A stretch of 43,265 nt of DNA from Knoellia subterranea KCTC 19937 (GTDB lineage Bacteria > Actinomycetota > Actinomycetes > Actinomycetales > Dermatophilaceae), in the NCBI RefSeq assembly GCF_000768685.1, contig NZ_AVPK01000016.1, positions 1-43,265 of the forward strand. The letters run 5' to 3'. The position numbers were made by a program, and so were the translations under genes. Shown in pieces: positions 803 through 41,998 of this stretch; the stretch's first letter is position 1, and each line of letters starts with the position of its first letter. The notes beneath the pieces are model-generated. The model saw only the letters and a program-made list of their open reading frames with translations. It was not told where the DNA came from and ran no database searches.

Positions 803-1815
803 GCCGCGCTCCCCTCGCTCGTGGCCGCCGCTTCGGTGGGCGAGTCCTCACCGGCGAGCAAGTGATAGAGCACGCTCATGCGGACCGCCACACCCGCGCT
901 CACCTGGTCGAGGATGAGGCTCTGGGCGGCATCGGCCGCGTCGGCGCTGATCTCGAGTCCGCGGTTCATGGGGCCGGGGTGGCAGATGACGATCTCCGGG
1001 TTCGCGTCGGTGAGTCGGGTGAGGCGGTCGCGGGTCAGGCCGTAGCCCACGGTGTATTCGCGTGCCGTCGGGAAGAACCCGCCACTCATCCGCTCCTTCT
1101 GCACGCGCAGCATCATCAGCGCGTCGATCGGCTTCGTGGACCCCGTGGCCTGCAGCACATGGTCCAGGTCGTTGCTCAGGGCGAACCCGTCGCGCTCGGC
1201 CCAGCCCGAGATGCCGCTGGGCATGAGAGTCGGCGGGGCGACGAGGGTGACGTCGGCACCGAGCCGGCGCAGCGAGATGAGGTTCGAGCGCACGACGCGC
1301 GAGTGGGTGAGGTCACCGACGATGGCGACGCGCTTGCCCTCGAGCGAGCCGAGCCGCCGCTCCATCGTGTAGGCGTCGAGCAGGGCCTGCGTCGGGTGCT
1401 CATGGGTGCCGTCGCCGGCGTTGATGACGTGGGCGTCGACCCACTGGGCCACCTGGTGTGCGGCACCGGAGGCGCCGTGGCGCATGACGAGGGCGTCGAC
1501 ACCCATCGCGTCGATGGTCCGCACCGTGTCACGCAGGGACTCACCCTTGGATGCGGACGACCCCTTGCCCGTGATGTTGATCGTGTCGGCGCTCATCCAC
1601 TTGCCCGCGATCTCGAAGGAACTGCGGGTGCGGGTGGAGTCCTCGAAGAAGAGGTTGATGATCGTGCGTCCACGCAGGGTCGGGATCTTCTTGACCTCGC
1701 GCTTCTGCACGTCGTGCATCTGCGTCGCCGTGTCGAGGATCGTGCGGATCCCGGCAGCATCCAGGTCGGCCATGGACAGGAGGTGGCGCGGCATACGCGT
1801 CGCCTGCGAGGTCAT
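799..1815 (-). CDS. pyrB: Aspartate carbamoyltransferase catalytic subunit
   Basis: Transfers a carbamoyl group from carbamoyl phosphate to aspartate, committing carbon to pyrimidines. The 338-residue product has the carbamoyl-phosphate signature STRTR near residue 60, HPTQ near residue 140 (aspartate/carbamoyl-phosphate site), and [10 protein letters not shown] near the C-terminus. The length is slightly above the usual 305-320. The ATG overlaps the pyrR stop (ATGA) and the stop overlaps the pyrC start, so the three genes are probably coupled. No pyrI regulatory gene is adjacent, as in most Actinobacteria, where control is through PyrR. Confidence 0.98.
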
Positions 1816-2408
1816 CGGGCTCCTCCGGCGATCGTCACGCTGTCGGCCTCGTCGAGCTCGGCCAGGCGGACGCGCACCTTCTCGGTCTGGGCGGTGGGCA
1901 GGTTCTTGCCGACGTGGTCGGCGCGGATCGGCAGTTCGCGGTGGCCGCGATCCACGAGGACGGCGAGGCGCACGGCAGCCGGGCGTCCGTGGTCGGCGAG
2001 CGCGTCGAGCGCAGCGCGCACCGTGCGGCCGCTGTAGAGGACGTCATCGACGAGGACGACGACCTTGCCGTCGACGCCACCTTCGGGGATGTCGGTCGGC
2101 ATGGGCGCGCGCGTGGGCTGGTGGCGCAGGTCGTCGCGGTACATCGTGATGTCGAGTGCGCCGACCGGGATCTCCCGGCCCTCGAACTCGGCGATCGTCG
2201 CCGCGAGCCGGCGTGCGAGCGGAACTCCCCGCGAGGGGATGCCGAGGAGAACGAGGTTCTCGGCGCCCTTGTTGGCCTCGAGGATCTCGTGGGCGATGCG
2301 ACGCAACGCCCGGGAGATGTCGGCGGCTCCGAGGACCGTCCTCCCGGCGTCGTTCACGGGGTCGGTCTCACTCGAGGAGCGAGCGGGCATGGCTGCGTCT
2401 GGACACAT
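1812..2408 (-). CDS. pyrR: PyrR: pyrimidine operon regulator / uracil phosphoribosyltransferase
   Basis: Bifunctional protein that binds pyr mRNA when UMP/UTP is plentiful and has weak uracil phosphoribosyltransferase activity. The 198-residue product has the PRPP-binding loop [13 protein letters not shown] near residues 115-127 and the family's [13 protein letters not shown] stretch. I start at the ATG at 2408, because a strong AAGGAGG lies 11 bases upstream and because the frame upstream (open to 2537) would place the PyrR RNA hairpin inside the coding sequence. It is the first gene of pyrR-pyrB-pyrC and probably regulates its own translation through the leader hairpin at 2428-2445. Confidence 0.95.
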
Positions 2409-2427
2409 CAGTGTCAAGACCTCCTTC

Positions 2428-2445
2428 CCTGCCTCACGGGACAGG
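2428..2445 (-). promoter_or_regulatory. PyrR-binding RNA stem-loop in pyrR leader
   Basis: Read on the minus strand, the leader holds CCTG-TCCCGTGAGG-CAGG, a short stem closing a loop that matches the known PyrR-binding loop pattern (UCC..GNGAGG). The 3' side runs directly into the pyrR Shine-Dalgarno GGAAGGAGG (2420-2427). In Mycobacterium smegmatis a similarly placed loop mediates PyrR-dependent translational repression. The position here, touching the ribosome-binding site with no following terminator, suggests the same mechanism. The loop match is seen in the sequence; the mechanism is inferred. Confidence 0.82.
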
Positions 2446-2469
2446 TCGTTAAAGGATGTCGGTCGCCCC

Positions 2470-2499
2470 ACTGTAGCGACTCCCCGCGTCGTCCCCCAA
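2470..2499 (-). promoter_or_regulatory. Candidate promoter of the pyr operon
   Basis: On the minus strand TTGGGG (2494-2499) and TACAGT (2470-2475) are separated by 18 bases. Transcription from here would begin just before the PyrR-binding leader hairpin and give a leader of about 55 bases. The -10 is good; the -35 is only partial. Confidence 0.4.
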
Positions 2500-40208: not shown

Positions 40209-41026
40209 GCGCCGCTCGCCGACGATGCCGAGGCGGCCGGAGCAGCCGACGTGGCGGTGCTCGCCTTCTTCGCCGGAGCCTTCTTGGCCGCGACCTTCTT
40301 CGCCGGGGCGGCCTTGGCGGCACCCGCCTTCTTCGCGGGAGCCTTCTTCGCGGGAGCCTTCTTGGCCGTGGACTTCTTGGCGGGAGCCTTCTTCGCCGCA
40401 ACTGCGGTGCCGGCAGACGTGGCCTTCGTGACACTGGCCTTCTTCGCGGGAGCCTTCTTCGCGAGAGCCTTCTTGGCTGCGGACTTCTTTGCCGTGGTCG
40501 CCTTCTTGGCGGGGGCGGCCTTCTTGGCGGGGGCGGTCGTCTTCTTGAGGGCGGCGCGAGCCGGACGACGCGAGCCTGCCTTCGGTGCGGGAGCGGCCGC
40601 TGCAACGGCGTCGCTCGCGGTGTCCTCGACCGACCCGGCGAGTCGAGACACACCGGGGGCTGCACTGGTCGCCGCTGCCGACGAACGTGCCGAAAGGTTG
40701 GCGGCGAGGTCTTCGACCTGGCCCCGCAGGGAGTTCACGGTGTCGCTCATCGTCGCGAGTTCGCGCTGGAGCGAGGTCACATCGAGACGACCCACGGCCT
40801 TGTCGACCTCCGAACGCACGAGCGAGACGAGGTTCTTGCGGTTCGTGTTGGCTGCGGCGATCAGGTCATCGGCCAGCTTGCTCGCCTGCTTCGTGACCTT
40901 CTTGGCAGAGAGGTCGCTGTTCGTGAGCGCGACGAGCTCGGCTGCCGCATCCTTGGCAGCACCCTTGGTCATTTCCCCGAGACCCGAGGCGAGCTCGACG
41001 TATCCCTGGATCGAACGCTTGGCCAT
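40205..41026 (-). CDS. Phasin-like helical protein with histone H1-like Lys/Ala tail
   Basis: The 273-residue protein has a helical N-terminal half (1-115; AKRSIQGYVELASGLGEMTKGAAKDAAAELVAL and QRELATMSDTVNSLRGQVEDLAANL) resembling phasin or polyhydroxyalkanoate-granule-associated and coiled-coil proteins. It is followed by an Ala/Ser linker and a long basic tail (about 155-255) made of AKK and PAKK repeats like those of actinobacterial Hup/HU and eukaryotic histone H1. This suggests nucleic-acid binding. AGGAGGAACC precedes the ATG. It may link DNA or ribosomes with another partner; the role is inferred. Confidence 0.85.
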   Translation of the reverse strand: MAKRSIQGYVELASGLGEMTKGAAKDAAAELVALTNSDLSAKKVTKQASKLADDLIAAANTNRKNLVSLVRSEVDKAVGRLDVTSLQRELATMSDTVNSLRGQVEDLAANLSARSSAAATSAAPGVSRLAGSVEDTASDAVAAAAPAPKAGSRRPARAALKKTTAPAKKAAPAKKATTAKKSAAKKALAKKAPAKKASVTKATSAGTAVAAKKAPAKKSTAKKAPAKKAPAKKAGAAKAAPAKKVAAKKAPAKKASTATSAAPAASASSASGA

Positions 41027-41059
41027 GGTTCCTCCTGTGACTCGTGGTGGTTCCGGCCC

Positions 41060-41065
41060 ACGCTA
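41060..41065 (-). promoter_or_regulatory. Candidate internal -10 box before the Lys/Ala-rich protein gene
   Basis: TAGCGT on the minus strand in the 66-base gap after the HAD gene. It could give the tlyA-recN part of the cluster its own promoter. There is no good -35. Confidence 0.3.
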
Positions 41066-41092
41066 CTCGGCGTCCACCGCATCTGGCGCCCG

Positions 41093-41998
41093 TCAGCGCA
41101 GGAGAGACTCCAGTTCCGACGGCAGCTCCGCCGCTGAAGCGGGACCAGCGCCAGTGTCGGCGCCCTCCCACGCGGCGCGCAAGGCGGCCCTGGCGGGCTC
41201 GAGTTCCTCGACCTCCACATGCAGTGCGCGCAGATCAGCGGCAACCCACGTGGGGCGTGACTCCGCCGGGGCCATCAGGGCGTCACGGATGTCGTGGACT
41301 CCGGTCATCACGAGCAGTGAGTCCATGCCGGCCATGTGTGCACCCTGGATGTCGGTTTCGAGCCGATCGCCAATCGCGAGAACCCGATCCGGCGCCACTC
41401 CGAGGCGCTCGGCGCACATGAGATAGAGCGGTTCGTCGGGCTTGCCGGCCACCAGCTCCGGCCCACGCCCCACCGCCGCGCCAACCGCCAGCACGAGGGC
41501 ACCGTTGCCCGGCGCGTAGCCGTCCGCCGTCGGAAGCGTGTGGTCCGTATTGGTGGCCAACCACAGCGCTCCCCGCTGAATGGCGTATGCCGCCTGCGCC
41601 AGATCCGTTGCCGTCACCTGCGGTCCGTACCCCTGCACGACTGCGGCCGGCTCGTCCGATGCCGAGAACACGGGTCGGAACCCTCGGTCGCGCAGGGCCG
41701 TCGCGACCCCCTCTCCGCCGATCGCAAGAACGGCCGCGCCCGGCTCGAGGTGCCGAGTCAGGACCCACGCCGCGGCCTGGCTGCTCGTGGCCACATCCGC
41801 GTCGGCGATGTCGAGACCGAGGCTGCGCAGGTGGTCGGCCACCTCCGCCGGGGGCCTTGAGGCGTTGTTCGTGGCGAACTGCACCGGCTTGGCGGCAGCG
41901 GTCAGCGATTCGACCGCATGCGGCACGGCGGGCTCACCGCGGTACACCACACCGTCGAGGTCGCAGATGAACGCGTCGTAGCGATCGAGCAGCCTCAC
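41093..41998 (-). CDS. HAD-IIA (NagD-like) phosphatase
   Basis: The 301-residue HAD hydrolase with a C2 cap has motif I ICDLDGVVYRG (Asp13, Asp15), motif II ATNNASR, motif III around GKPDEPLYLM, and motif IV AIGDRLETDI. The gene is in the position of M. tuberculosis Rv1692, shown to be a glycerol-3-phosphate phosphatase in glycerophospholipid recycling, so the same activity is plausible. GTG start overlapping the TPR-protein stop (GTGA). A C-terminal acidic extension of about 50 residues follows the fold. Confidence 0.93.
   Translation of the reverse strand: MRLLDRYDAFICDLDGVVYRGEPAVPHAVESLTAAAKPVQFATNNASRPPAEVADHLRSLGLDIADADVATSSQAAAWVLTRHLEPGAAVLAIGGEGVATALRDRGFRPVFSASDEPAAVVQGYGPQVTATDLAQAAYAIQRGALWLATNTDHTLPTADGYAPGNGALVLAVGAAVGRGPELVAGKPDEPLYLMCAERLGVAPDRVLAIGDRLETDIQGAHMAGMDSLLVMTGVHDIRDALMAPAESRPTWVAADLRALHVEVEELEPARAALRAAWEGADTGAGPASAAELPSELESLLR

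Follow-up and report, generated by a model that had tools for sequence, protein, structure and literature searches.

A frequent octamer in Knoellia and related actinobacteria as a probable DNA-uptake sequence

Uptake sequences have been described from two Gram-negative families, the Pasteurellaceae with their uptake signal sequence (USS) and the Neisseriaceae with their DNA uptake sequence (DUS), according to passages of PMC7811141 and PMC5031613. Parts of PMC1939737 place 65% of the Haemophilus influenzae and 35% of the gonococcal sequences in open reading frames (ORFs), with an excess in non-coding DNA, about 10% of the copies inverted, no orientation bias and a USS core lying within a 29-bp consensus, while sections of PMC3630211 describe DUS dialects, inverted pairs tied to terminators and two dialects occurring together in Simonsiella muelleri. 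Here we analyse a stretch of 43,265 nucleotides from Knoellia subterranea KCTC 19937 (contig NZ_AVPK01000016.1, the whole of which we call the window), a member of the Intrasporangiaceae in which the octamer GTATGCCG recurs 25 times. From its distribution across the genome and the family, we consider it likely that Intrasporangiaceae/Dermatophilaceae are naturally transformable and that this octamer forms the core of their DNA-uptake sequence.

The octamer is non-palindromic (its reverse complement is CGGCATAC), and its 25 copies in the window, counted on both strands, divide into 13 on the plus and 12 on the minus strand, so that every start and the strand split of the original prediction proved exact. 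That prediction had put the chance level at one or two copies, in keeping with our expectations of 0.49 from 100 dinucleotide shuffles (maximum 3, none reaching 25) and 1.25 from an order-3 Markov model; likewise, 25 of the 27 GTATGC hexamers in the window extend to the full octamer, as it had stated. The complete genome of the strain (3,566,056 bases, completeness 99.99%) holds 2,444 copies, 1,233 forward and 1,211 reverse, and is thus 45 times richer in the octamer than in the reversed word used as a control (54 copies; 22 forward, 32 reverse). In a 431,782-base sample of the same genome, made up of the window and 20 further stretches, 267 copies stand against 12 expected under the order-3 model (22-fold), the highest z-score of all octamers, and a second sample of 143,009 bases contains 99; in total about 0.61 Mb of the 3.57 Mb was sampled. 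The mean spacing is 1.5 kb, with copies spread across the sampled contigs. The excess lies almost wholly in the exact word, because its 24 single-substitution neighbours sum to 324 in the larger sample against about 298 expected, with modest exceptions for C at position 1 (22 versus 9) and G at position 4 (44 versus 20).

Coding constraints account for little of this abundance. Genes were called with a simple finder trained on the strain's own genome and applied to relatives too, which gave 406 genes and 89% coding sequence in the 431,782-base sample. Of the 267 copies there, 194 (73%) lie in genes, 4 overlap a gene edge and 69 are intergenic, corresponding to densities of 0.50 per kb within genes and 1.49 per kb, about threefold more, between them. 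Against the 194 genic copies, synonymous shuffling within each gene left a mean of 20.5 (largest 31 in 200 runs) and synonymous resampling across the sample a mean of 14.7 (largest 26 in 100 runs); codon and dipeptide bias together thus explain about a tenth of the genic copies. The reading frames agree with the original prediction of a mostly Ala-Tyr or Tyr-Ala reading with occasional use of another frame, 164 of the 194 genic copies encoding Tyr-Ala or Ala-Tyr and 30 falling in other frames, and the two dipeptides are themselves mildly frequent (343 and 348 versus 290).

Many copies are also conserved in place. Across three regions aligned with a second Knoellia genome (G129), 13 of 17 copies are kept (13 of 18 in the reciprocal count), compared with 25.5% for other 8-mers of equal G+C, and the nine unmatched sites all differ by one or two substitutions in gap-free alignment. 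Among six locus pairs, which overlap and are not independent, 16 of 17 unmatched sites are gap-free and 13 carry only one or two substitutions; sites therefore seem mostly to have been kept, gained and lost in place rather than inserted. The synonymous shuffles, the use of several reading frames, the intergenic enrichment and this conservation support the earlier proposal that the DNA itself is the target of selection, or, as we would add, of drive.

Closely spaced copies have a characteristic arrangement. All 16 pairs less than 60 bp apart in the 431,782-base sample are inverted and none is direct; 11 are intergenic and 5 genic, including 37556/37572 within a RecN-type gene of the window, and together they comprise 32 of the 267 copies (12%). 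RNA folding of four of the 16 pairs gave hairpins with energies between -21.9 and -45.4 kcal/mol, and no shuffled sequence was as stable. The 69 intergenic copies further share a one-sided consensus of about 29 bp around the octamer, A-rich at -10 to -7, with C or G directly before the octamer and TCCGCTCRCCT at +9 to +19, its information fading by about +25. The same consensus appears, more weakly, around the 48 unpaired intergenic copies, and A is nearly absent from positions +9 and +10 across all 267 copies (0.01 and 0.02).

The octamer characterizes much of the family. Sampled as 149 genomes of 53 genera, the Intrasporangiaceae/Dermatophilaceae include 83 that are rich by our own cut-off (at least 100 copies per Mb), 16 with 30-100 copies per Mb and 50 with fewer, and 31 of the 53 genera contain a rich genome. 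The original prediction, which had rightly assumed the Intrasporangiaceae, had proposed a comparison with neighbours: among 238 genomes across the order, 18 belong to the family and the other 220, from 19 families, lie near background, the highest count being 177 against 135 for the reversed control. Knoellia aerolata and Knoellia sinensis carry 1,971 and 2,485 copies. Eleven of 26 named genomes are rich, namely Knoellia (2), Pedococcus (2), Serinicoccus, Ornithinimicrobium (2), a metagenome-assembled genome (MAG) of Ornithinibacter and three other MAGs; the genomes that fall short of this level include Janibacter (2), Phycicoccus sp. CSK15P-2 and Kribbia, Allobranchiibius is intermediate, and ten named outgroups are at or near background (largest 226 versus 90, in an 8.5-Mb genome). 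In four other genera the octamer exceeds synonymous shuffles 8.8- to 14.9-fold. The octamer-bearing actinobacterial genera are mostly soil and sediment dwellers. As a separate observation, the octamer of G015 (genus g16) lies within a repeat of about 25 bp, found inside and between genes, unlike in the other genera sampled.

Sampling of motif-poor genomes (relatives were sampled for words over 20-131 kb each) uncovered a dialect, GGATGCCG, one base from GTATGCCG, that joins or replaces it in three genera. It reaches 2,099-4,480 copies in seven genomes of these genera (3,949 in G026; 3,816 and 3,838 in g17; 4,480, 3,619, 2,195 and 2,099 in g44), against 200-439 for reversed controls that understate its background (571 versus 261 in the Knoellia genome of the window). 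Two g44 genomes hold both words in bulk, with 1,217 and 1,189 copies of GTATGCCG. Relative to synonymous shuffles, GGATGCCG is 6.1-fold in excess in G026 and 6.5-fold in G103, 2.5-fold in the pooled g2 genomes and 1.2- to 1.3-fold in G069 and G057. Samples of 20-116 kb from several other motif-poor genera yielded no convincing substitute word, and GTACGCCG, CGTACGCC, GTACGGCG, CGATGCGG, CGATGCCG, GATGCCGA and CGAAGGGG, at 1.6- to 4.9-fold over synonymous shuffles, were not called dialects. Two of them are candidates for additional iterated words or dialects: GTACGCCG, with 18 copies in G040 where synonymous shuffling gives 3.7, and CGATGCGG, with 81 copies in G057 against 20. CGAAGGGG is part of CCCCCTTCG, itself over-represented under the order-3 Markov model in the motif-poor genomes G144 (Janibacter, g38; 21 versus 1.1) and G037 (18 versus 1.0). 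Tetrasphaera phage TJE1 carries 2 copies of GTATGCCG and 7 of GGATGCCG in 49 kb; having 58% G+C and a host whose dialect was not identified, it was given little weight as a motif-free control.

These features recall both Gram-negative systems. Like the DUS of the Neisseriaceae, which is read by the receptor ComP, the octamer is present in thousands of copies, both genic and intergenic, is frequently arranged in inverted hairpin pairs, and has dialects in related species, with two g44 genomes combining both dialects as Simonsiella muelleri does. Eight bases, ATGCCGTC, are even common to the Knoellia intergenic consensus and the DUS ATGCCGTCTGAA given in part of PMC5031613, a striking resemblance that is probably coincidence. 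The differences are that Knoellia is Gram-positive with about 70% G+C, that its core is an octamer, and that it has Tad/Flp loci, with neither a type IVa prepilin nor a ComP-like receptor found. Like the USS, the octamer is a short core within a 29-bp consensus with most copies in ORFs (73% genic here), an excess in non-coding DNA, a similar inverted fraction (12% versus about 10%) and no orientation bias; it differs from the USS in its unrelated sequence and in a G+C-rich downstream preference with the A-rich patch upstream.

A Gram-positive precedent for the machinery comes from Micrococcus luteus, in which transformation requires both tad clusters together with comEA/comEC (sections of PMC4322843 and PMC8467076) and the Flp complexes require the prepilin peptidase (a section of PMC4322843). 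Knoellia likewise has Tad clusters comparable to those two, overlapping comEA and comEC genes and a separate prepilin peptidase; the difference is that neither PMC4322843 nor PMC8467076 uses the term 'uptake sequence'. The genome of the window strain encodes three Tad-type loci: locus A, with CpaB/RcpC, a ParA-like protein, TadE, an ATPase and two T2SSF proteins; locus B, with an ATPase, two T2SSF-cluster proteins and short pilin-like proteins (Flp and TadE named by eye); and locus C, with an ATPase, two T2SSF proteins, a 72-residue Flp-like protein and TadE, to which other genomes compared add two further minor-pilin-like genes that would lie outside the stretch examined in the Knoellia genome. 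A prepilin peptidase gene (PF01478) lies in the window at 12090-12788 on the minus strand and a second PF01478 gene adjoins locus A; the former is a possible processing enzyme for Tad pilins encoded elsewhere in the genome. A ComP-like type IVa pilin receptor was rejected, the N_methyl prepilin being present in only 4 of the 149 family genomes and in none of the genus Knoellia.

Following from these comparisons, we infer competence, a preference in uptake and a receptor from the pattern in the genome, the genes and the dialects observed. The octamer would be bound by a DNA receptor exposed on the competence pilus and probably belonging to the minor pilins of a Tad/Flp pilus; in the window strain, this receptor would additionally prefer about 20 bp of flank, A-rich upstream and TCCGCTCRCCT downstream. 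Pilus action and ComEA/ComEC would import the tagged DNA, and homologous recombination would swap the matching chromosomal stretch for it. Tagged alleles would be taken up more often, so that copies arising by chance could spread and be kept by drive, accumulating in either orientation at any site where they do not disturb coding or regulation, while closely spaced inverted copies would persist as hairpins, mostly between genes. Drift of the receptor would then generate dialects, such as the change from GTATGCCG to GGATGCCG.

The distribution of the octamer in mobile DNA bears on the same proposal. In the window strain, a 14-kb island splits the tad-C ATPase gene (L137:3033-17064; G000:C1 at about 414.0-428.1 kb) and contains a type III restriction-modification pair, AbiEi- and Abi_C-type genes and an IS110 transposase; it has a single octamer against an expectation of 9-10. 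G026 has, past tadC, 6.6 kb of low-G+C DNA, apparently an island, with 0 copies of GGATGCCG against 6.4 expected. The first sample's longest stretch free of the octamer, 10.2 kb, carries a PF01527 transposase, a Tn3-type transposase and a resolvase alongside ordinary genes, and finding one such gap is unremarkable, since chance alone would give 0.49 with 267 sites. Depletion in mobile DNA is drawn from these three stretches; for the USS, a genomic island with few copies is reported in part of PMC7811141. Further tad-C loci appear disturbed. About 39 kb separates the ATPase gene from the Flp gene in G069 (C1:271169-311353), G026 lacks a Flp gene and has the apparent island past tadC noted above, G017 retains half an ATPase gene without a Flp gene (C14:20098-20523, possibly at a contig end), and the G092 assembly gave no match to the tad-C ATPase (again possibly a contig end). 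Insertions that abolish competence may recur preferentially at this locus, and the island of the window strain likely marks a recent loss of its tad-C pilus. Among the candidate roles that the original prediction had named, uptake is the one favoured by the hairpin-forming inverted pairs, by a one-sided flank resembling that of the USS, by the genus dialects, by the scarcity in mobile DNA and by the M. luteus-like set of competence and Tad genes.

Several observations weigh against this reading. The long flank belongs to one strain and is not general: the downstream letters of the window strain were not seen at 8 unpaired intergenic copies in Knoellia G129, and small samples from other genera (8-11 such copies per genome) show other downstream letters. 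Because the flank was not seen in the second Knoellia, our confidence in uptake is slightly lower. One of the three regions aligned with G129 also shares none of its three octamer sites. The machinery is widespread with or without the motif, comEC occurring in 145 and the Tad-C pilin in 131 of the 149 family genomes, and Janibacter (G144) has both and lacks the motif. Many motif-poor genomes, including Janibacter, have retained comEC together with the two Tad loci, so that the motif cannot be predicted from the machinery by itself; presence of ComEC and bulk counts of T2SSE ATPases both failed as discriminators. Of 131 genomes at least 90% complete, 76 bear the motif and 55 are motif-poor; the Tad-C pilin is lacking in 2 and 11 of them, respectively (Fisher p=0.002), or by genus in 1 of 29 and 5 of 19 (p=0.03), with our own cut-offs and uncorrected for relatedness; the two motif-bearing exceptions, G017 and G026, both look damaged at tad-C. 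No receptor was found among the Tad-B and Tad-C pilins, which are present in genomes with and without the motif and show no difference between them in presence or absence or, by eye, in charge. In these assemblies, the window strain and two more Knoellia, G017 and G092, lack a whole tad-C ATPase gene and may be non-competent; since they retain full octamer numbers, the proposal requires the loss to be recent. Finally, uptake and transformation are themselves predictions from the pattern and the genes.

The strongest alternative, which we nevertheless regard as unlikely, is that a DNA methyltransferase or a repair system maintains this highly iterated word, through modification, repair bias or regulation and unrelated to uptake. 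Its model is HIP1 of cyanobacteria, likewise a very frequent octamer and linked to orphan methyltransferases (part of PMC4390886); scarcity in recent islands would fit any slowly accumulating word, and the island interrupting tad-C does carry a type III methyltransferase. HIP1, however, is a palindrome and GTATGCCG is not, and a methylation site would need neither a one-sided flank preference of 20 bp, nor close pairs that are exclusively inverted, nor dialects that differ between genera by one base. The type III system, moreover, was seen only in the motif-poor island of one strain, with no search made elsewhere.

A binding site for a protein of chromosome organization, segregation or repair, comparable to Chi, KOPS or matS, is more improbable still. 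The mean spacing of 1.5 kb over the sampled contigs would suit such a site, and copies in the window lie within RecN- and RarA-type repair genes. Chi and KOPS, however, are strand-polar. Orientation here is balanced, as the original prediction had held from the window: a 200-kb stretch has 56 plus and 65 minus copies, and the 83 rich genomes pooled have 84,630 and 84,776 by strand, none of the 83 deviating at p<0.01, which refutes a strand-polar signal. Absence from related genera such as Janibacter would also be odd for a maintenance site.

Dispersal by transposition of a mobile repeat, such as a REP, MITE or terminator cassette, seems very improbable. The intergenic hairpin pairs and the 25-bp repeat of G015 are what it would predict, but 73% of the copies are genic, flanking information is near background outside about -11 to +25, and the unmatched orthologous sites are, with a single exception, gap-free. 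Least credible, to the point of being negligible, is the idea that the octamer simply follows from Ala-Tyr and Tyr-Ala dipeptides together with codon-pair bias, for the predominance of these frames and the mild dipeptide excess are outweighed by synonymous shuffles that yield a tenth of the count and so refute it, by the 30 copies in other frames, by the threefold intergenic density and by family genomes of similar G+C, such as G144, that lack the motif.

The individual copies in the window illustrate the variety of their settings. By our gene calls five are intergenic: 2813-2820 (plus), 4196-4203 (minus), 5311-5318 (plus; adjoining efp, for elongation factor P, 4714-5274, minus), 11507-11514 (minus; adjoining aroC) and 19680-19687 (plus), where the calls are uncertain. 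The original prediction was right that intergenic copies exist but had put their number at four. The pyrB-like aspartate/ornithine carbamoyltransferase gene (799-1815, minus) contains 1789-1796 (minus). In the aro genes, aroB (3-dehydroquinate synthase) contains 8646-8653 (plus) and 9509-9516 (minus), aroC (chorismate synthase) 10243-10250 (plus) and aroE (shikimate dehydrogenase) 13534-13541 (minus); the prepilin peptidase gene described above contains 12555-12562 (plus), and a YceG-family gene 14434-14441 (plus). Three copies share a RarA/MgsA-type AAA+ ATPase gene (20126-20133 and 20207-20214, both minus; 20709-20716, plus). Beyond these lie 22943-22950 (minus) in a gene at 22327-23091 (plus), 24001-24008 (plus) in a RelA/SpoT-domain gene, 28008-28015 (plus) in a small predicted gene whose call is weak (27741-28070, minus), 28328-28335 (minus) in a NUDIX gene, 30610-30617 (plus) in a glycosyltransferase gene, 32438-32445 (minus) in a MurJ-family gene and 33976-33983 (minus) in a gene at 33323-34135 (minus). 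The inverted pair, with its left arm at 37556-37563 (minus) and its right arm at 37572-37579 (plus), falls within the RecN/SMC-type gene at 36351-38054 (minus), and 41585-41592 (plus) in a HAD-hydrolase gene. Apart from the octamer, a FitA-like ribbon-helix-helix antitoxin gene adjoins a short PIN-domain gene at 3444-4114, a probable VapBC-type pair.

The principle of such a system is known; the phylum, the sequence and the pilus would be new. Neither an actinobacterial uptake sequence nor the octamer appeared among the matches listed in a search of titles and abstract beginnings of the open-licence PMC literature, which is not proof of absence, and the parts of a review of DNA uptake by type IV filaments that were consulted (PMC6370729), all away from the two places where the term itself occurs, name no actinobacterial uptake sequence. 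We think it rather probable that the octamer belongs to an uptake-sequence system for self DNA that arose independently of the two known ones and would be the third overall. It would also be the first from Gram-positive bacteria and the first to be read through a Tad/Flp pilus, spanning much of an actinobacterial family in at least two dialects and countered by defence and mobile islands that insert in tad and switch competence off. If so, sequence-biased uptake would have evolved repeatedly, with a third origin in the Actinobacteria on a different pilus, and the suggestion that mucosal habitats favour uptake selectivity (made in part of PMC7811141) would become testable. Natural competence would be predicted in 33 genera, the 31 rich in GTATGCCG together with g17 and g26, which carry GGATGCCG; the octamer would provide a tag for transforming such bacteria, and the closely related dialects would help to find the DNA receptor of the Tad pilus.

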